A stretch of 64,000 bases of DNA from Sideroxydans sp. (GTDB lineage: Bacteria > Pseudomonadota > Gammaproteobacteria > Burkholderiales > Gallionellaceae), in contig JAQTUV010000003.1 of assembly GCA_028707175.1 (NCBI GenBank), positions 1 to 64,000 of the forward strand, in the 5' to 3' direction. Under the pieces are notes generated by a model, which did not search any database, was not told the origin of the DNA, and saw only the letters and a list, made by a program, of their open reading frames with translations. Below, piece by piece: positions 48,238 to 60,300 of this stretch. A program made the position numbers and the translations under genes. The stretch's first letter is position 1. Each line of letters opens with the position of its first letter.

Positions 48238-49311
48238 ATGAGCAAGAAAAAACAGCCAAGTAGCGAAGTCTCTATCGTCCGCTCCTCTGCGGCTGAATAC
48301 CTGACTTTTGTTGCAGCTACAGGTGATGCTGAAGCCAGCGTGGAGATGCGCTATGAGGAGGAGAACATCTGGCTGACGCAAAAGATGATGGCAACGCTCT
48401 ACGATGTCACTGTGCCTGCCATCAATCAGCACCTGAAACGCATTTTTGACGACGATGAATTACAGCGTGAGGCAACTGTTAAGAAATACTTAATAGTTCA
48501 AACCGAAGGCAGCAGGCAGGTACAACGCGAAGTGGAGCACTACAACCTGCAGGCGATCATTGCTGTCGGCTTCAAAATCGAAAACGAGCGGGCCGTTCAG
48601 TTTCGCAAGTGGGCCAATCAGATCGTTAAGGATTACACCATCCAAGGCTGGGCCATGGATGTGGATCGCCTCAAACATGGCGGCAGCGTGCTGGACAAAG
48701 AGTTTTTTGAGCGGCAACTGGAAAAGATTCGGGAGATAAGACTTTCCGAGCGCAAGTTCTACCAGAAGATCACCGATATTTACGCAACCGCCTTGGACTA
48801 CGACTCAACTGCCACTGCGACCAAACGGTTTTTCGCCGCAGTGCAGAACAAACTGCACTACGCAATCCATGGGCAGACAGCAGGAGAAGTTATCGTTGAC
48901 CGTGCCGACCACCGCAAGGAGAACATGGGGCTGACTCATTGGGACGGAGCCCCTCACGGCAAAGTCCATAAATACGATGTCAGTATCGCCAAGAACTACC
49001 TCAACGAATACGAGCTGGCCCAAATGCAGCGCATTGTTTCCGCCTACCTTGATATGGCCGAACTTCAGGCTATGCGTAAAATCCCCATGACTATGGCCGA
49101 CTGGGAAAAGCGCTTGGCGGGTTTTCTGACATTGTGGGATCGCGAAATTTTGCAGGATGCAGGCAAGGTCACCGCAGAGCTGGCTCGTGCCCACGCCGAA
49201 AGCGAATTTGAAAAATACCGCATCGTGCAAGACAGACTATTCGAGAGCGACTTCGATCAATTGCTGAAACAGGTTGGGGTGCGGAAGGATGACGTGAGCG
49301 AAAAAGGCTAG
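48238..49311 (+). CDS. RhuM-family protein
   Basis: 357 aa. The N-terminal part (EENIWLTQKMMATLYDVTVPAINQHLKRIFDDDEL) and the central VEHYNLQAIIAVGFKIENERAVQFRKWANQIVKDYTIQGWAMD are the RhuM signature. A C-terminal helical part follows. The family is of unknown function, common on genomic islands and sometimes linked to Fic/toxin genes. No toxin gene is adjacent. It looks like an acquired insertion between sox and the following genes. The upstream 148 bases show no feature. Confidence 0.85.
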   Translation: MSKKKQPSSEVSIVRSSAAEYLTFVAATGDAEASVEMRYEEENIWLTQKMMATLYDVTVPAINQHLKRIFDDDELQREATVKKYLIVQTEGSRQVQREVEHYNLQAIIAVGFKIENERAVQFRKWANQIVKDYTIQGWAMDVDRLKHGGSVLDKEFFERQLEKIREIRLSERKFYQKITDIYATALDYDSTATATKRFFAAVQNKLHYAIHGQTAGEVIVDRADHRKENMGLTHWDGAPHGKVHKYDVSIAKNYLNEYELAQMQRIVSAYLDMAELQAMRKIPMTMADWEKRLAGFLTLWDREILQDAGKVTAELARAHAESEFEKYRIVQDRLFESDFDQLLKQVGVRKDDVSEKG

Positions 49312-53387: not shown

Positions 53388-54260
53388 TTATGCAGTGACC
53401 ACTCTATTCAAATACCGCGCTCGAAACAGCAGGCGTGGATTGGTCGGGTCGTCGGTGAAAGAGGAGCGGTCGTGCAGTACGTTGCTGCACAGTAAACCCA
53501 TGCCGCTTTCCATCTTCAATTGGTGGATGTGCGGAGAGTTTGCATCAAGGATATTTTCAAGTGCGGCGACGGCAGCTAGGGTGAGTGCATCTTGTTTCCA
53601 TTCGATGCTGCGTGTGCGGGCGGTGTAGCGCATGTGCAGATTGCCTTGCGCATCGATCGAGAACACGGGGCCGGTCTGCGCCTCACGCACACCGTCGAAC
53701 TCATCCACGCGCGCAGGGATGGTCATCACGTCAGGTGCGGAAAGGGCGCGGATGAAGTCGGGATTCGCATCGCGAAGCAGGATGTAGGCGATCTCGTGGT
53801 CCATCACGCGGTTCTCGCCACCTGTGCCCGCATTACGTACGCAGTGCAATACCATGCCGCGTATCTGCCTTGCAGGCGGGTTGTAGTAGCCGTCGGTGTG
53901 CCATTTGATGGCGCGGTCGGTGTAGGGGATGTAGGTCTGGCGTTGGTTGTCTGGGTTGCTCACGGTGATGCGCGAGATACCGTATTTGTCCGCCAGCCAA
54001 TTGGCATCCAGATCGAAAAGGCCAAATTGTTCACCGAACGCGCGCAACATGATCTCGTCCATTTCCACGTGGCTGGCATAGATGGCCATGTTGCTGCGCT
54101 GGCAACGATTGAGTAGCGCAGCACGCTCCGCTTGGGTGACGTGCAGGGGGTCGGCGACCTCAACGATGAGTTCGTTCGATGCGACGATGGCGTGTGTCAG
54201 CCTGTGTTCGCGCCAACGCAGATAGGTGTCTGTGTCTTCGAGATCAAAAGGGGAGGACAT
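53388..54260 (-). CDS. TauD/TfdA-family dioxygenase
   Basis: 290 aa from ATG 54260, which lies just after the upstream stop; a GTG at 54272 would add four residues. Fe(II)/2-oxoglutarate motifs are WHTDGYY (His-x-Asp) and the distal His in NVLHDRSSF, with a 2-OG-binding Arg likely in RARYLNR. It could act on a sulfonate or sulfate ester, but the substrate is unknown. It is the last gene of the minus-strand cluster, and its 3' end is duplicated downstream. Confidence 0.82.
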   Translation of the reverse strand: MSSPFDLEDTDTYLRWREHRLTHAIVASNELIVEVADPLHVTQAERAALLNRCQRSNMAIYASHVEMDEIMLRAFGEQFGLFDLDANWLADKYGISRITVSNPDNQRQTYIPYTDRAIKWHTDGYYNPPARQIRGMVLHCVRNAGTGGENRVMDHEIAYILLRDANPDFIRALSAPDVMTIPARVDEFDGVREAQTGPVFSIDAQGNLHMRYTARTRSIEWKQDALTLAAVAALENILDANSPHIHQLKMESGMGLLCSNVLHDRSSFTDDPTNPRLLFRARYLNRVVTA

Positions 54261-54261
54261 G

Positions 54262-54858
54262 CTAGTCGCCACTGGTGCCCGTGCGGCGACGGGCAGGACG
54301 TGGCGCTGTCTCCAGCAGGTTGCTGAATGTCTTCTCCAGCATCTCGACCGCTTCGGGTGCTTCTATGCTCATCATCGGATCGATGATCCACCAGCTGTCT
54401 TTGTCGTCCATCACTTGTTCCATGCAAAACGCGAGGTAACGCATGAAAGAAAAATCGCCGCCTTTTCCCTCATAGGTGAAGTCGGCGTATTCGTCAGCAC
54501 GTTGATTCAGGCGGTCAATAAAGCGCCGTTTGCATTCAGCAATATCGCCACCGATGAGGCGGCTTTCATTCTCGGCATGGGTCGCGGCGACGCGATGGGC
54601 GAGTTCTGACGTGAAGCTGTTGCGCTCTTCGAGTGAAAAAAGGCGATAGGCGATGCGGTCCGCTACCTGGATCTGAAACAACAAAAATTCGGTGAGAAAG
54701 GCGAAATACTGCGGCCCGACCGCGATTTCGAACTTGGCCTTGCGCGTATTTTTCAGCGCATTGTCCGCGATGCGGTAGATGACGAAGGAAAGTGCCCCAG
54801 CGAGTTCCTCTGGGGTGTGCTCTTTACCTGCTTTGAACCAGCTACTCTTGATACGCAT
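54262..54858 (-). CDS. Unknown helical protein of the dsr-adjacent cluster
   Basis: 198 aa from ATG 54858, with GGGA upstream; the frame continues upstream into the DsrC-like gene, but that part is antisense-type shadow. The protein is soluble and mostly helical (EELAGALSFVIYRIADNALKNTR, FLTEFLLFQIQVADRIAYRLF). The C-terminus is basic (RPARRRTGTSGD). I do not recognise the family. It lies between the DsrC-like and TauD-like genes, whose reading frames it almost touches. Confidence 0.7.
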   Translation of the reverse strand: MRIKSSWFKAGKEHTPEELAGALSFVIYRIADNALKNTRKAKFEIAVGPQYFAFLTEFLLFQIQVADRIAYRLFSLEERNSFTSELAHRVAATHAENESRLIGGDIAECKRRFIDRLNQRADEYADFTYEGKGGDFSFMRYLAFCMEQVMDDKDSWWIIDPMMSIEAPEAVEMLEKTFSNLLETAPRPARRRTGTSGD

Positions 54859-54928: not shown

Positions 54929-55258
54929 TCAATACCCGCCTTTGCCTTTAGGCTGTGGCAAGCCAGCCACTTTGGCCGCTTGTTTGGCTGGGCCAACAGG
55001 GAATAGGTCGTACAGGTCTTTGCTTTCAGCTTCAGGCCAGAATTCGTTCACACCTTTCAGCATGTTGCGGAAATTAGGGGTGTGGCCTTCTTCGCGGAAT
55101 TGATCGCGCATGTAGTTGATGATTTCCCAGTGCTTGGGAGTTAGTTCAATCTCCTCTGCCGCTGCGATCACGTTGACGACTTCTTCGCTGAAATCGGCCT
55201 CCAGTAGATAGCCTTCTGCATCAGTCTCAAGTTCATTTCCTGCCACTGTGTAACTCAT
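54929..55258 (-). CDS. DsrC/TusE-family paralogue lacking cysteines (RspA-like)
   Basis: 109 aa. It aligns with DsrC through ELTPKHWEIINYMRDQFREEG and LFPVGPAKQAAKVAGLPQP. The two reactive Cys of the C-terminal arm are replaced: Ala95 at the CysB position and Lys106 at the CysA position; the protein has no Cys at all. Such DsrC-like proteins (termed RspA, regulatory sulfur-related protein, as I recall) cannot carry persulfide, so a regulatory or binding role is likely. The true DsrC is at 59965-60300. An RBS (GGAGG) precedes the start. Confidence 0.88.
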   Translation of the reverse strand: MSYTVAGNELETDAEGYLLEADFSEEVVNVIAAAEEIELTPKHWEIINYMRDQFREEGHTPNFRNMLKGVNEFWPEAESKDLYDLFPVGPAKQAAKVAGLPQPKGKGGY

Positions 55259-55290: not shown

Positions 55291-55893
55291 TCATTCCAAG
55301 TCGGTGATTGCTTTGTAGGGAACAAAAATACCGCAGCCATAACGACGTTCTGCACCTAGACCTGCATATTGCAAACGTAGTGACGCATCTGGCTTCATGT
55401 CGTGTATGACGAGGCTGTAGCCGTGAATCGTACGTTCGGGAATGCTTAATTGACTACGCAATCCACAAATCAATTTGCTAGGAATGTTCATCTCAGCCAG
55501 TTGTGTGGTGACGGCGTGTAGAAATGCCGTTTCATCGGCATCACCGATAACGAGATGAGCATGCAAAGTGGGGGAGGGTTGGATGGGGCGTAGTTTGATT
55601 GCGCCTAGTTGCAGTGGCACGTTATCAACTGACAACGACTTTCCAGCCAAAGTATCTATATGTGTTTCAAGTTGTCTAGGAATGCGTACTACCAGTTTGG
55701 TGCGTCTGGGTAGTACTAGCCCACCAGCAGTGCTGGATGTGCGCAAGGGAAGTACGCCGACATTGTCATGCTCTTCTAATGCGGACAAGTGTTGAGTTAA
55801 GGCTTTCCACAAAGGGTAGGCATAGGCGGTAGGGACTACTTCACCGCTGATGTCAAAAACAGCATCAATCATGTCTACGGTTTTTTCAGTCAT
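55291..55893 (-). CDS. Orphan Cas6/Cmx6-like protein
   Basis: 200 aa. It resembles the Cas6/Cmx6 family of type I-MYXAN CRISPR systems: VDMIDAVFDISGEVVPTAYAYPLWKAL at the N-terminus, LPRRTKLVVRIP, LICGLR, and the C-terminal SLRLQYAGLGAERRYGCGIFVPYK, which contains a Cas6-type glycine-rich loop (178-190). Cas6 proteins cut CRISPR repeat RNA. No CRISPR array and no other cas gene is in the window, so another RNA target or a non-cleaving role is possible. Candidate catalytic His are His35 and His42. It overlaps the upstream 74-aa gene by 8 nt and lies 32 nt before the DsrC-like gene, so they form one operon. Confidence 0.75.
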   Translation of the reverse strand: MTEKTVDMIDAVFDISGEVVPTAYAYPLWKALTQHLSALEEHDNVGVLPLRTSSTAGGLVLPRRTKLVVRIPRQLETHIDTLAGKSLSVDNVPLQLGAIKLRPIQPSPTLHAHLVIGDADETAFLHAVTTQLAEMNIPSKLICGLRSQLSIPERTIHGYSLVIHDMKPDASLRLQYAGLGAERRYGCGIFVPYKAITDLE

Positions 55894-56110
55894 GGGATGA
55901 GGTGGGTTGCGTAGCCGCCCACGCTTGCATGGCTTGTGCCCATTGTTGTGCGGTAGCGGGGTCGATATCGAAAATCGTGAAACGTTTTCCTTCTTTAATA
56001 CGCACGCGCATCAAACTCATCCCCCCTTCGACATGGTCGATCTGTTGCAACTCGATTTCTTGGGAACCAAGGGGAACTTTGAACTTAGCTAATGCAATGG
56101 TCTGTGCCAT
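55886..56110 (-). CDS. Small conserved protein, first gene of the dsr-adjacent minus cluster
   Basis: 74 aa, family not recognised. Predicted beta strands (TIALAKFKVPLGSQEIELQQID, MSLMRVRIKEGKRFTIFDID) are followed by a helix (TAQQWAQAMQAWAAT). No Cys. It overlaps the Cas6-like gene by 8 nt, so translation is coupled. It is divergent from the dsr operon. Confidence 0.65.
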   Translation of the reverse strand: MAQTIALAKFKVPLGSQEIELQQIDHVEGGMSLMRVRIKEGKRFTIFDIDPATAQQWAQAMQAWAATQPTSSHD

Positions 56111-56277
56111 ATAAAGATTTCACCGTGAGCGTTTTAGGTCGGGAAGTCTATCCCGTAATGAAGCGCTATTGGAATACTACTGGTGAACGTTTTGATACTA
56201 CCCATAAGGGTTACAAAAAATACCCGCTATGGGTGATGGTTTGTGAAGGATTAGCCCCGTACGATGCCATCCATTAA
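56092..56277 (+). CDS. Possible small protein upstream of dsrA
   Basis: Up to 61 aa, with alternative starts at GTG 56125 or ATG 56158. The C-terminal part (RYWNTTGERFDTTHKGYKKYPLWVMVCEGLAPYDAIH-like, broken here only by length) has plausible protein composition. The first 19 bases overlap the start of the minus-strand gene. It may be a real small gene of the dsr operon or leader sequence; I do not recognise it. Confidence 0.4.
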   Translation: MQWSVPYKDFTVSVLGREVYPVMKRYWNTTGERFDTTHKGYKKYPLWVMVCEGLAPYDAIH

Positions 56278-56406: not shown

Positions 56407-57699
56407 ATGGCGAAGAAGATGCATGATACCCCCAACCTCGATCAGCTTGAGGACGGCCCGTGGCCAAGTTTTGTGACTGGATTGAAGGATCTGGCCAAGG
56501 ATAAGGACTATGTAGTTGATTTGTTGGGTCAGTTGGAAGAATCCTATAAGACCAAAAAAGGTTATTGGAAGGGTGGTACGGTCGGTGTATTCGGTTACGG
56601 CGGTGGTGTTATTCCTCGCTTTACTGAATTAAAGAATGCAGACGGTACGCCAAAATTTAAAGACGCAGCCGAGTTTCACACCTTGCGTGTCATGCCACCT
56701 CCTGGCATGCACTACGACACAGACACTTTGCGTCAATTCTGCGACATCTGGGAAAAGCATGGCTCTGGCTTGATCGCGTTCCATGGTCAGTCTGGCGACA
56801 TCATGTTCCAAGGTGCGACGACAGAGAACGTCCAGAAGGCTTTTGACGAGATCAACGAGATGGGTTTTGACCTCGGTGGTGCAGGCCCTGCAGTGCGTAC
56901 CTCCATGTCTTGCGTGGGTGCTGCTCGTTGCGAGCAATCATGCTACGACGAAGCACAAGCACATCGTGCAGTGTTGAACACCTTCCTCGACGATATTCAC
57001 CGTCCATCGTTGCCATATAAGGTTAAGTTCAAATTCTCCGGCTGCCCGAACGACTGCATGAATTCGATCCAACGTTCCGACATCGCGGTGATTGGTACAT
57101 GGCGCGACAACATCCGTACTGACGAAGCGCTGGCGAAGAAGTGGTTCGTCAAGCACGGTATGGACGAATTGGTGAACGACGTTGTTTCGCGTTGTCCGAC
57201 CAAGACTTTCCAAGTCAAAGAGATCGGCAAGCTCAAGAAGGGCGAGCATATTTCCACCGTGGCTGTGAGCGATACCCATGGGGTCGAGATCAACAATCAA
57301 GATTGCGTGCGCTGTATGCACTGCATCAACGTGATGACTGGTGCGCTGGCTCCTGGCGAAGATAAAGGTGCCACTGTGCTGGTGGGCGGTAAGAGCCATC
57401 TGAAGATCGGTGGCCTGATGGGTACCGTGGTGATGCCGTTCATCAAGCTGGATACCGAAGAAAACGTTGAGAAGTTGGTCGACTTTGCGCAACGCCACAT
57501 TGACTTCTTCGCCGAAAACGCGCTGGAGCACGAGCGTTCAGGCGAAATGATCGAGCGTATTGGTCTGTCCAATTACCTTGATGCGCTGGAAGTCGATGTT
57601 GATCCTGCCATGGTCAATTCGCCACGTATGAATCCCTATGTGCGTACTGATGGTTGGGATAATGAAGTTGCCAAGATCAACGCCAAGAAGCAAGCCTGA
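56407..57699 (+). CDS. dsrA: Reverse-type dissimilatory sulfite reductase alpha subunit
   Basis: 430 aa. Sirohaem/[4Fe-4S] cysteines are in SCVGAARCEQSC and SGCPNDCMN; the inserted ferredoxin domain has CVRCMHCINVM. With DsrB it forms the cytoplasmic DsrA2B2 enzyme. The presence of dsrL and dsrEFH in the operon marks the oxidative (rDsr) pathway, which turns stored sulfur, bound on DsrC, into sulfite. It is the first clear gene of dsrABEFHCMKL. RBS GAAAGGA. Confidence 0.97.
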   Translation: MAKKMHDTPNLDQLEDGPWPSFVTGLKDLAKDKDYVVDLLGQLEESYKTKKGYWKGGTVGVFGYGGGVIPRFTELKNADGTPKFKDAAEFHTLRVMPPPGMHYDTDTLRQFCDIWEKHGSGLIAFHGQSGDIMFQGATTENVQKAFDEINEMGFDLGGAGPAVRTSMSCVGAARCEQSCYDEAQAHRAVLNTFLDDIHRPSLPYKVKFKFSGCPNDCMNSIQRSDIAVIGTWRDNIRTDEALAKKWFVKHGMDELVNDVVSRCPTKTFQVKEIGKLKKGEHISTVAVSDTHGVEINNQDCVRCMHCINVMTGALAPGEDKGATVLVGGKSHLKIGGLMGTVVMPFIKLDTEENVEKLVDFAQRHIDFFAENALEHERSGEMIERIGLSNYLDALEVDVDPAMVNSPRMNPYVRTDGWDNEVAKINAKKQA

Positions 57700-57710
57700 G
57701 GAGATAGATA

Positions 57711-58805
57711 ATGAACCAAGCTGTTGCTGCTGCACCTGTTGCGAAACGCAAGCCTAAAGAGACAGGCGTTCCGGATAATAAAAAGTATCTTCACCCCGTG
57801 ATGGCGAAGAATTACGGAAATTGGAAATACCATGACCGTCCACGTCCTGGTGTGCTGCATCATGTGGCGCACTCTGGCGATGAGATTTGGTCTGTGCGTG
57901 CAGGTACTGCACGTCAGATGGATATTTTCACGATTCGCAAGCTGTGCGATATCGCTGACAAGTACGCAGAAGGTCGTGTGCGTTTCACTATTCGCTCCAA
58001 CATCGAATTCATGGTGTCGGATGTAAGTAAGGTTGACCCGCTGATCGCTGAATTGGGCAAACATGGTTTCCCAGTAGGTGGTACAGGTAACTCAATCACG
58101 ATGATTGCGCATACCCAAGGTTGGTTGCATTGCGACATTCCTGGTACGGATGCATCGGGTGTAGTGAAGGCATTGATGGATGAGTTGCATCATGAGTTCA
58201 TTCGTGAAGAGATGCCTAACCGCGTCCACTTGTCTACGTCATGCTGCGAGATTAACTGCGGTGGTCAAGCTGACTTGGCGATCATCGTGCAACACACCAA
58301 GCCGCCAGTCATCAACCACGATCTGGTTGCTAACGTATGTGAGCGTCCAACCGTGGTGGCACGTTGCCCAGTGGCGGCGATTCGTCCTGCGATGGTGAAC
58401 GGCAAGCCTTCTCTGGAGATCGACGAGTCCAAGTGTATGTGCTGCGGTGCTTGCTATCCCCCATGCCCACCGATGCAGATCAATGACCCAGAAAATTCCA
58501 AGCTGGCGATCTGGGTTGGCGGTAAGAACTCCAATGCGCGCGGCAAACCAACCTTCATGAAGATGGTTGCTTCGGGCTTGCCAAATAATGCACCGCGTTG
58601 GCCTGAAGTGGCTGCGGTCGTGAAGAACATCCTGACTGTGTACAAGGAAGATGCACGTGCTTGGGAGCGTCTGGCAGATTGGATCGACCGTATCGGTTGG
58701 CCTCGTTTCTTCGAGAAGACAGGTCTGCCATTCACCAAGTATCTGATTGATGATTGGCGCGGTTCACGTGCGAACTTGAACTCGTCCACGCACATCCGGT
58801 TTTAA
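57711..58805 (+). CDS. dsrB: Reverse-type dissimilatory sulfite reductase beta subunit
   Basis: 364 aa. The catalytic cluster region is HLSTSCCEINCGGQADLAI, and the ferredoxin domain has CMCCGACYPPCPPM. RPRPGVLHHVAHSGDEIWSVRAGTARQ is typical of DsrB. It follows dsrA by 11 nt. A REP-like hairpin lies right after its stop. Confidence 0.97.
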   Translation: MNQAVAAAPVAKRKPKETGVPDNKKYLHPVMAKNYGNWKYHDRPRPGVLHHVAHSGDEIWSVRAGTARQMDIFTIRKLCDIADKYAEGRVRFTIRSNIEFMVSDVSKVDPLIAELGKHGFPVGGTGNSITMIAHTQGWLHCDIPGTDASGVVKALMDELHHEFIREEMPNRVHLSTSCCEINCGGQADLAIIVQHTKPPVINHDLVANVCERPTVVARCPVAAIRPAMVNGKPSLEIDESKCMCCGACYPPCPPMQINDPENSKLAIWVGGKNSNARGKPTFMKMVASGLPNNAPRWPEVAAVVKNILTVYKEDARAWERLADWIDRIGWPRFFEKTGLPFTKYLIDDWRGSRANLNSSTHIRF

Positions 58806-58807
58806 GC

Positions 58808-58862
58808 GTAGGTCGGGCTTTAGCCCGACAGTTTGGAGTCGTCGGGTTAAAACCCGACCTAC
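58808..58862. repeat. REP-like palindrome between dsrB and dsrE
   Basis: Outer arms GTAGGTCGGG (58808-58817) and CCCGACCTAC (58853-58862) with two inner hairpins (GTCGGGCTTTAGCCCGAC; GTCGGGTTAAAACCCGAC). It begins 2 nt after the dsrB stop and ends 25 nt before dsrE. It is related to the copies at 53118-53171 and 53298-53351. As RNA it could protect dsrAB mRNA or be cut. Confidence 0.85.
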
Positions 58863-58887
58863 AACAAATTTGAGGATGACTGAAAAT

Positions 58888-59247
58888 ATGAAATTCGGAA
58901 TCGTAGTCAATGAAGGGCCGTATCAGCATCAGGCGAGCGACTCTGCTTACCTGTTTGCGAAAGCGGCCATCGCCAAAGGGCATGAAGTGTGGCGCGTGTT
59001 TTTCTACCACGACGGTGTGAACAACGCATCCAAGCTGACAGAGCCTCCTCAGGATGACAGACACATCGTTAATCGTTGGACCAAGTTGGCTGAAGAGCAC
59101 AAGGTCGACCTGGTGGTGTGTGTGGCAGCAGCGATGCGTCGCGGCATCCGTGAAGAGAATCTGGCCGCAGGCTTCCGTATCTCGGGGCTTGGTCAGTTGG
59201 TTGAAGCCGGTACGAAGTGTGATCGCCTGATCACATTCGGCGATTAA
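58888..59247 (+). CDS. dsrE: Sulfur-carrier protein DsrE
   Basis: 119 aa from ATG 58888, which gives the standard MKFGIVVNEGPYQHQASDSAY start. The active Cys is in DLVVCVAAAMRRGI (near residue 78). It is a subunit of the DsrE2F2H2 hexamer that passes persulfide sulfur to DsrC. ATG 58876 is possible but overlaps the RBS GAGGA. Confidence 0.94.
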   Translation: MKFGIVVNEGPYQHQASDSAYLFAKAAIAKGHEVWRVFFYHDGVNNASKLTEPPQDDRHIVNRWTKLAEEHKVDLVVCVAAAMRRGIREENLAAGFRISGLGQLVEAGTKCDRLITFGD

Positions 59248-59258
59248 GGAGAGACGAG

Positions 59259-59630
59259 ATGAGCGAAGGTGCTGTTAAAAAATTCATGTTCGTCAATCGC
59301 AAGGCGCCGTATGGAACGATCTATGCATTGGAGGCATTGGAAGTGGTGTTGATCACTGCAGCCTTCGATCAGGATGTGTCATTGGTCTTTATGGATGACG
59401 GTGTCTATCAATTGAAGAAAGGTCAGCAGACCAAAGGTGTCGAGATTAAGAACTTCTCGCCTACCTATCGTGCGTTGGAAGGTTATGACATCGAGAAGTT
59501 GTATGTCGAGAAGGAATCTTTGGATGCACGTGGTTTGACAGAAGACGATTTGCTGGTGGATGTCACCGTGTTGGGGCGCGCAGAGATGGGCGCATTGATG
59601 AACGAACAAGACGTTGTCTTGAGTTTCTAA
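59259..59630 (+). CDS. dsrF: Sulfur relay protein DsrF
   Basis: 123 aa, DsrE/DsrF fold (KKFMFVNRKAPYGTIYALEALEVVLITAAFDQDVSLVFMDDGVYQL). It has no Cys, as usual for DsrF, and forms the hexamer with DsrE and DsrH. RBS AAGGAGA. Confidence 0.93.
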   Translation: MSEGAVKKFMFVNRKAPYGTIYALEALEVVLITAAFDQDVSLVFMDDGVYQLKKGQQTKGVEIKNFSPTYRALEGYDIEKLYVEKESLDARGLTEDDLLVDVTVLGRAEMGALMNEQDVVLSF

Positions 59631-59639
59631 GGGGGCGGC

Positions 59640-59936
59640 ATGTTACACATCATCAATAAATCTCCCCTAAGCAATAGCTCATTGGAAAGTTGTTTGCGGG
59701 TCGCCGTTTCGGGCGATATCCTGCTGACTGAAGATGCGGTATATGCCGCGACTTCAGGTAATGCCTTCGAAGGAAAATTGCGTGAGGCGATGGGACGATT
59801 CAAAGTCTATGTCTTGCAGCCAGATCTGGATGCAAGAGGACTTGGTGATCGACTCATCGAAGGTGTGACCGGTGTGGATCACGGCGGTTTTGTGGATCTG
59901 ACTATCAGTAACAACAATTGCCAATCTTGGCTGTAA
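59640..59936 (+). CDS. dsrH: Sulfur relay protein DsrH
   Basis: 98 aa, DsrH/TusB fold. The conserved Cys is Cys18 (SLESCLRVAVSGDILLTEDAVYA). It completes DsrEFH. A second Cys near the C-terminus is in NNNCQSWL. RBS GGGGGCGG overlaps the intergenic gap. Confidence 0.92.
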   Translation: MLHIINKSPLSNSSLESCLRVAVSGDILLTEDAVYAATSGNAFEGKLREAMGRFKVYVLQPDLDARGLGDRLIEGVTGVDHGGFVDLTISNNNCQSWL

Positions 59937-59964: not shown

Positions 59965-60300
59965 ATGGCAAGTATCGAAGTAGGCGGTAAATCATACGAG
60001 ACAGACGAAGAAGGATATTTGGTCAACTTGGCTGAATGGAATCCAGAAGTAGGTGTTTATTTGGCAGGTACAGAAAGTGTTGAATTGACCGAACAGCACT
60101 GGGAAGTCATCAATTTCTTGCGCGAGTATTTCGAGGAATATCAAATCGCTCCTGCAGTACGTGTCTTGACGAAAGCGATTGGCAAAAAGCTGGGGGCCGA
60201 AAAAGGCAATAGCGAATACCTGTATGGCTTGTTCCCATACGGTCCAGGCAAGCAGGCATGCAAGATTGCCGGTCTGCCTAAGCCAACTGGTTGCGTTTGA
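59965..60300 (+). CDS. dsrC: Sulfur-carrier protein DsrC
   Basis: 111 aa from ATG 59965 (GGGGAG at 7 nt). The C-terminal arm KQACKIAGLPKPTGCV keeps both reactive residues, Cys99 and Cys110, with the DsrC spacing of ten residues. It takes sulfur from DsrEFH and is the substrate of DsrAB; DsrMK is thought to handle the trisulfide. The contrast with the Cys-free paralogue at 54929-55258 is clear. Confidence 0.97.
   Translation: MASIEVGGKSYETDEEGYLVNLAEWNPEVGVYLAGTESVELTEQHWEVINFLREYFEEYQIAPAVRVLTKAIGKKLGAEKGNSEYLYGLFPYGPGKQACKIAGLPKPTGCV

Follow-up and report, generated by a model that had tools for sequence, protein, structure and literature searches.

The closest described relatives of the protein studied here are the Cas6/Cmx6 proteins of type I-MYXAN (I-B-like) CRISPR-Cas systems, including the Cas6 of the type I-B CAST (PDB 8FCJ/8FCU), with which it shares the family profile, the fold over its full length (TM 0.86), the glycine-rich loop, and residues R70, Q175, and R183. 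In contrast to them, our protein is acidic, has no adjoining cas genes or array, and is encoded in a dsr cluster. Orphan proteins of this kind also differ from CRISPR-linked Cas6 in having E121, R64, G144, K194, and mostly K140, and in a shorter loop after position 144. With regard to the dsr genes, the reference is the dsrABEFHCMKLJOPNRS cluster of Allochromatium vinosum (PMC3368242); in the window (the whole 64,000-nucleotide stretch of Sideroxydans sp. DNA that was analyzed), the dsr gene order begins in the same way. The accessible part of that account does not mention cas6. The product of the gene next to cas6 belongs with the DsrC/TusE family by its matches to PF04358 and TIGR03342, yet it ends in KGGY and lacks the penultimate cysteine. 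The cas6–dsr link is absent from the accessible parts of PMC10952691, PMC7540712, PMC3368242, PMC5944118, PMC5728499, PMC8889020, and PMC4164917, and we found no description of it in the literature searched, where earlier work on DsrC paralogues in subscription papers was possibly missed.

Results

A Cas6-family protein is encoded beside dsrAB

The original prediction read one open reading frame of the window as an orphan Cas6/Cmx6 embedded in a sulfur locus. The ORF, its strand, and both motifs quoted from it were found as described. Its product matched TIGR02807, the profile proposed as a check, with an E value of 2.5e-40 and 138.5 bits (curated cut-off, 98.85) and PF09559 with 185.1 bits (cut-off, 26.7), and six PADLOC Cas6 models matched it as well. 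The outcome that would have spoken against the prediction, a profile search without a Cas6 hit, did not occur. This was the only PF09559 match in the whole assembly (2.89 Mb, 99.94% complete). A sequence search of the PDB at E ≤ 1 gave a single relative, 8fcj_B, the Cas6 of a type I-B CAST (E 4e-15). Structure prediction, proposed as a check, agreed: an AlphaFold2 model obtained with 43 sequences (the window protein and those of 42 of 46 mostly Gallionellaceae loci) showed the two-domain ferredoxin-like fold of Cas6, with a mean pLDDT of 91.7. The top Foldseek match of this model was 8fcu_B, again a type I-B CAST Cas6 (E 9.9e-19, TM 0.86), followed by Cas6 proteins of several CRISPR types, and Cas6–RNA complexes were among the matches. 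The C-terminal glycine-rich loop is present, with G178, G180, G186, and G188 each found in at least 113 of 114 aligned orphan rows. As judged from profiles and the predicted structure, the window ORF is a true Cas6-family protein.

The genes around cas6 in the window are the following:

53388..54272, minus strand: TauD-like 2-oxoglutarate/Fe(II) oxygenase (PF02668, 69 bits)
54262..54858, minus strand: conserved 198-aa all-helical protein, no Pfam match (start moved to an inner ATG)
54929..55258, minus strand: DsrC paralogue with C-terminus KGGY and without C-terminal cysteines (DsrC-KGGY; PF04358)
55291..55893, minus strand: dsr-linked orphan Cas6 (PF09559/TIGR02807), 200 aa, from profiles and predicted structure
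55886..56110, minus strand: DUF6967 protein (PF22295), with an 8-nt overlap with cas6
56407..57699, plus strand: dsrA (TIGR02064, 489.7 bits, cut-off 392.85), divergent from the cas6 operon
57711..58805, plus strand: dsrB, from its position and because it matches the dsrA profile weakly, as a paralogue
58870..59936, plus strand: dsrE, dsrF, and dsrH, from order and length; dsrE and dsrF were also placed in relatives
59965..60300, plus strand: canonical dsrC with both C-terminal cysteines (PF04358, 153 bits; tail ACK...GCV)

The names dsrE, dsrF, and dsrH are our assignment from gene order and length, and we take the window dsrA to be of the reverse type from its dsrEFH context. The genes for Cas6, the DUF6967 protein, the DsrC paralogue, the 198-aa protein, and the TauD-like oxygenase form an apparent operon, divergent from dsrAB. 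An operon shared with a DsrC paralogue had been proposed, and the spacing agrees with it, as dsrC2 begins 32 nt downstream of cas6. The model of the 198-aa protein (pLDDT 82.9) had no structural match in the PDB at E ≤ 0.001.

This arrangement recurred in a set of 46 loci, mostly Gallionellaceae by title, in which neighbors were counted on the same strand within 2 kb of cas6: the 198-aa protein was present in 45 loci, the DUF6967 protein in 44 (in all of them upstream of cas6), the DsrC paralogue in 44, and the TauD-like oxygenase in 42. dsrA was divergent and upstream of cas6 in 43 of the 46. When the same count was applied to 36 other loci longer than 10 kb from the class (Gammaproteobacteria in the GTDB sense, betaproteobacteria included), the neighbors were a 62-aa protein (26 loci), the DsrC paralogue (26), the TauD-like oxygenase (22), and a 235-aa protein (12). 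A divergent dsrA lay within 6 kb upstream of cas6 in 26 of these 36 loci, and it was outside the locus or not near cas6 in the other 10.

Other features of these loci were observed. The families of approximately 62 and 235 aa, which have no Pfam match, are recurrent neighbors of cas6 in dsr loci of the class (e.g., L081:8866-9051 and L081:9069-9731); homology of the 62-aa neighbor (family c12) to DUF6967 was considered and found no support, with an hhalign local probability of 5.6. In many of the mapped Gallionellaceae-type loci, the gene of the DsrC paralogue is followed by a tandem TusA gene (e.g., L034:11035-11517) and then by that of the 198-aa protein; in place of TusA, the window has 76 nt that include a strong hairpin.

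cas6 follows dsr across the class

In a sample of 369 genomes of the class, PF09559 (cas6) was found in 118, dsrA in 119 at E < 1e-30 (112 above the curated cut-off and seven partial), and cas1 in 136. Both cas6 and dsrA were present in 111 genomes, cas6 only in seven, dsrA only in eight, and neither in 243 (Fisher p 7e-75, a value that overstates the case because related genomes are not independent). Among the 118 cas6 genomes, 51 had cas1 and 67 did not, an association that was not significant (p 0.08); cas6 lies beside dsr whether or not the genome has cas1, a point that the original prediction had proposed to check. Of the 111 genomes with both genes, 82 had cas6 upstream of dsrA, divergently oriented and no more than 6 kb away (gap 568–4511 bp, median 1722); in 27 the two genes were on different contigs, and in two they were far apart on the same contig. 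Across the class, cas6 follows dsr and not CRISPR.

A second sample of 398 genomes from the phylum, a few of them common to the class sample, yielded PF09559 in five and dsrA (E ≤ 1e-30) in 53. The five cas6 carriers were exactly the five dsrA carriers of the order to which the window belongs, and outside the class, 48 genomes had dsrA and none of them PF09559. Therefore, Dsr chemistry as such does not depend on Cas6, whose association with dsr is a feature of this class and not of every Dsr organism. Four of the genomes with cas6 only (G093, G186, G299, and G318) are likely to have assembly gaps, because congeneric genomes are dsrA-positive. Two others are harder to dismiss in this way: G127 (100% complete, 40 contigs) and G317 (99%) have cas6 beside a KGGY DsrC gene but lack dsrA and any further DsrC match, and a real decoupling is the alternative there. 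In G264 (C165:4124-4674), the cas6 match came in two separate pieces, from a frameshift or a sequencing error. A search for Cas6 in phages gave no match; the same search with the DsrC paralogue gave two, one annotated as TusE and the other in an unannotated record.

CRISPR content of the window and of the genome

The absence of CRISPR held for the window and failed for the genome. A search of the 64 kb for a CRISPR-like direct-repeat family found none, and no cas model was among the PADLOC matches listed for ten window proteins (for one of them, 25 of 38 matches). Separately, the product of 48238-49311 matched the PADLOC candidate defence family PDC-S05 with 490.7 bits. The only Cas1 match in the genome was on another contig, C8, where we found genes for the type I-C proteins Cas3, Cas5c, Cas8c, Cas7, Cas4, and Cas1c (L099, G000:C8:87000-106900), adjoined by an array with some 90 copies of the repeat. 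In type I-C systems, Cas5 performs the processing. The absence of cas6 is used as a criterion for this type in the accessible part of PMC5944118. The original prediction was to fall if a complete CRISPR-Cas locus elsewhere in the genome owned the protein; the C8 locus does not overturn it, because it belongs to a subtype without cas6 and because cas6 follows dsr across the class. The hallmarks of a type I-MYXAN system are also missing, since the neighbors of cas6 are dsr-linked genes instead of cas3, cas8/cmx8, cas7, and cas5, and no array served by it was found, the window being arrayless and the array located on C8 adjoining the I-C genes.

The presence in the genome of an array and a cas locus would be in line with a Cas6 that processes crRNA in trans for arrays elsewhere. 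We rejected this explanation as very improbable because a Cas5c is encoded in the I-C locus itself and cas6 showed no significant association with cas1; the position of cas6 beside dsr and the 67 of 118 carriers without cas1 also argue against it.

The adjacent DsrC paralogue ends in KGGY

The DsrC paralogue of the window scored 115.6 bits with PF04358 and 99.3 bits with TIGR03342, as expected for the family, and its tail, AAKVAGLPQPKGKGGY, lacks the two conserved C-terminal cysteines. We surveyed 113 cas6 loci, corresponding to 105 places because eight genomes were counted twice. A DsrC paralogue lay at most 450 bp downstream of cas6 on the same strand in 97 of these loci (90 places). All 97 adjacent paralogues ended in KGGY and none had the penultimate cysteine; their last 26 residues were free of cysteine in 91 and included one or more in six. 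Regarding the other DsrC-family ORFs in the surveyed loci, 58 of 63 had both cysteines, and the searched motif was absent in five. Because the penultimate cysteine is absent, DsrC-KGGY is unlikely to act as a persulfide carrier, the role of DsrC. A Tus-like relay that delivers sulfur to RNA was considered and is unlikely for the same reason.

Of the 15 places where no partner adjoined cas6, four (L016, L025, L082, and L097) had a KGGY DsrC in the same locus. Nine genomes of the remaining places were searched further, L070 and L078 being left out; a KGGY DsrC was encoded elsewhere in five (G014, G032, G088, G097, and G180) and was absent from four (G009, G042, G061, and G305). In six of the seven cas6 genomes without dsrA, the cas6 locus included a KGGY DsrC (in G299 on the other strand); G093 had none. 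Among the eight genomes with dsrA and without cas6, three encoded a DsrC ending in KGGY (G110, G207, and G211) and one a DsrC ending in KAGY (G079); the contigs of G110 and G211 are broken at the KGGY DsrC gene or immediately before it, where cas6 would lie. Five genomes having neither cas6 nor dsrA gave no DsrC match. Given these counts and their exceptions, the tie between cas6 and DsrC-KGGY is strong and not absolute.

The orphan proteins have lost and gained basic residues

We compared 114 orphan rows (eight genomes represented twice) with six CRISPR-linked cyanobacterial rows. E121 was present in all 114 orphan rows, and proline occupied this position in all six CRISPR-linked ones; R64 (114/114), G144 (113/114), and K194 (113/114) were further marks of the orphans. 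Thirteen positions were basic in at least five of the six CRISPR-linked rows: six of them (56, 111, 118, 130, 153, and 182) have mostly lost the basic residue in the orphans, positions 66, 70 (R70), and 183 (R183) have kept it, and positions 113, 146, 150, and 173 differ between orphan groups. Positions 63, 64, 102, and 194 are newly basic in the orphans. The two orphan groups shared a median pI of 6.2 (range 5.0–10.0), versus 9.5 in the six CRISPR-linked proteins. At the candidate catalytic position 24, histidine was found in 6/6 CRISPR-linked and 66/67 class rows and tyrosine in 45/47 window-type rows; the window protein has Tyr, and the aligned type I-B CAST Cas6 has Asn. A GNGW insertion, present in 56 of the 67 class rows, was absent from the window type and from the six CRISPR-linked rows.

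The acidic pI, the predominant loss of basic residues at six CRISPR-conserved positions, and Tyr24 in the window lineage suggest that the Cas6 fold may now serve as a protein adaptor that does not bind RNA and docks DsrC-KGGY or other Dsr proteins, perhaps via the KGGY tail, which was constant in the 97 adjacent paralogues. However, the glycine loop, R70, and R183 are kept, new near-invariant basic residues have been gained, His24 persists in almost all class rows, and a KGGY DsrC occurred without a cas6 match in three of eight tested genomes (with a contig break there in two). We regard an adaptor as possible, short of probable.

A quick tree of 112 rows separated seven plasmid rows, i.e., the six CRISPR-linked ones and L124, from the rest (SH-aLRT 99). 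The rows outside the orphans were cyanobacterial only, and L124 is the one of the seven that is not in a cas operon. The tree is consistent with a single capture of cas6, which is not proved because the tree is quick and its outside rows are cyanobacterial only. L124:5974-6765 encodes a Cas6/Cmx6 on a Gloeobacter plasmid; an incomplete gene table lists no further cas gene within 6 kb of it. Among its neighbors are genes for a PAPS-reductase-family protein and a cupin protein, and this may be a second setting outside CRISPR. Over 13 close pairs, quick NG86 estimates gave a median dN/dS of 0.17 for cas6 and 0.04 for the DsrC paralogue, which indicates that cas6 is under purifying selection. The location of the six CRISPR-linked relatives in cas operons on cyanobacterial plasmids could suggest that a CRISPR-Cas locus was lost and that cas6 stayed behind as a neutral leftover, by chance, but cas6 was retained in 111 of the 119 dsrA genomes of the class sample, its dN/dS is low, and it has orphan-specific invariant residues. 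This origin is even less credible than crRNA processing in trans.

The proposed hairpin substrate is not conserved

Two elements between genes of the window were considered:

56200..56239, no strand: tandem palindromic element of the divergent promoter region, conserved in a 44-locus alignment
58808..58862, no strand: REP-like inverted pair in the dsrB–dsrE gap, not conserved

The dsrB–dsrE hairpin had been named as a substrate of the recruited Cas6. The gap that contains it had a median of 14 nt in 39 loci (range 7–461), being short in most of the relatives measured, and we discarded the hairpin as a conserved Cas6 substrate. For the other dsr gaps, inspection of gap lengths and window folds revealed no hairpin candidate in the window and no apparent conserved hairpin, and Rfam gave no match at the gathering threshold over 48–64 kb. 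In a reading along the lines of the original prediction, the protein would be an active endoribonuclease maturing a specific cellular RNA, e.g., dsr mRNA or a small RNA. The Cas6 fold, the Cas6–RNA complexes among its structural matches, and the retention of His24 outside the window type are compatible with such an enzyme; the loss of His24 in the window protein and the missing RNA element argue against it, and we consider it unlikely.

In contrast to the hairpin, the tandem palindrome is conserved. The interval between dsrA and the DUF6967 gene measured 219–463 nt in 44 loci, and the strict pattern of the palindrome was found in 24 of them, with a single match within the window. No ORF common to the loci was apparent in this divergent region. 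From its sequence, the element looks more like a DNA operator, perhaps common to the cas6 cluster and dsrA, and we propose it as a candidate.

Discussion

The association of cas6 with dsr is real and larger than the original prediction supposed. The recruitment that it proposed stands insofar as this Cas6 lies outside any cas operon, is conserved beside dsr, and is independent of cas1; the hairpin named as its substrate does not. It is very likely that Cas6 has been domesticated to the dsr locus and is a standing member of it across the class.

In the explanation that we favor, a Cas6 of the Cmx6 kind would have been captured, perhaps once, by dsr-type sulfur oxidizers of the class Gammaproteobacteria and would have become a dedicated member of the gene cluster divergent from dsrAB. 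There it would work with a DsrC paralogue that ends in KGGY and has lost the penultimate redox cysteine (mostly both cysteines), the two forming a module that assists or regulates sulfur oxidation by reverse Dsr. Beyond the family, fold, gene order, and linkage to dsrA reported above, we infer that Cas6 and DsrC-KGGY act together, and the pair may sense or regulate rather than carry sulfur. The weakest step is that Cas6 may still bind RNA, possibly a transcript of the dsr regulon, through its remodeled basic face, with or without cleavage. The binding of A. vinosum DsrC to DNA upstream of dsr, described in the accessible part of PMC5944118, counts in favor of this explanation. For the full mechanism of capture, dedicated membership, and a joint module with DsrC-KGGY, we estimate a probability of about 0.5. 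A role in sulfur oxidation, as an accessory or a regulator of the pathway, is probable. A more speculative version, which we hold to be doubtful and slightly less plausible than the adaptor, is that the domesticated Cas6 and the cysteine-poor DsrC-KGGY constitute a ribonucleoprotein switch coupling sulfur flux to the expression of the dsr regulon.

Since the NCBI family name is a CRISPR one, a cas gene may be attributed to genomes that are free of CRISPR. In the literature searched, this conserved companion of a major pathway of the sulfur cycle has gone unremarked. A regulatory function would provide a handle for switching or reading out the dsr regulon, and an RNA-based one would make this a Cas6 with a metabolic use. 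With Cas6 and DsrC-KGGY as a pair, the role of the cysteine-poor DsrC paralogues becomes directly testable.
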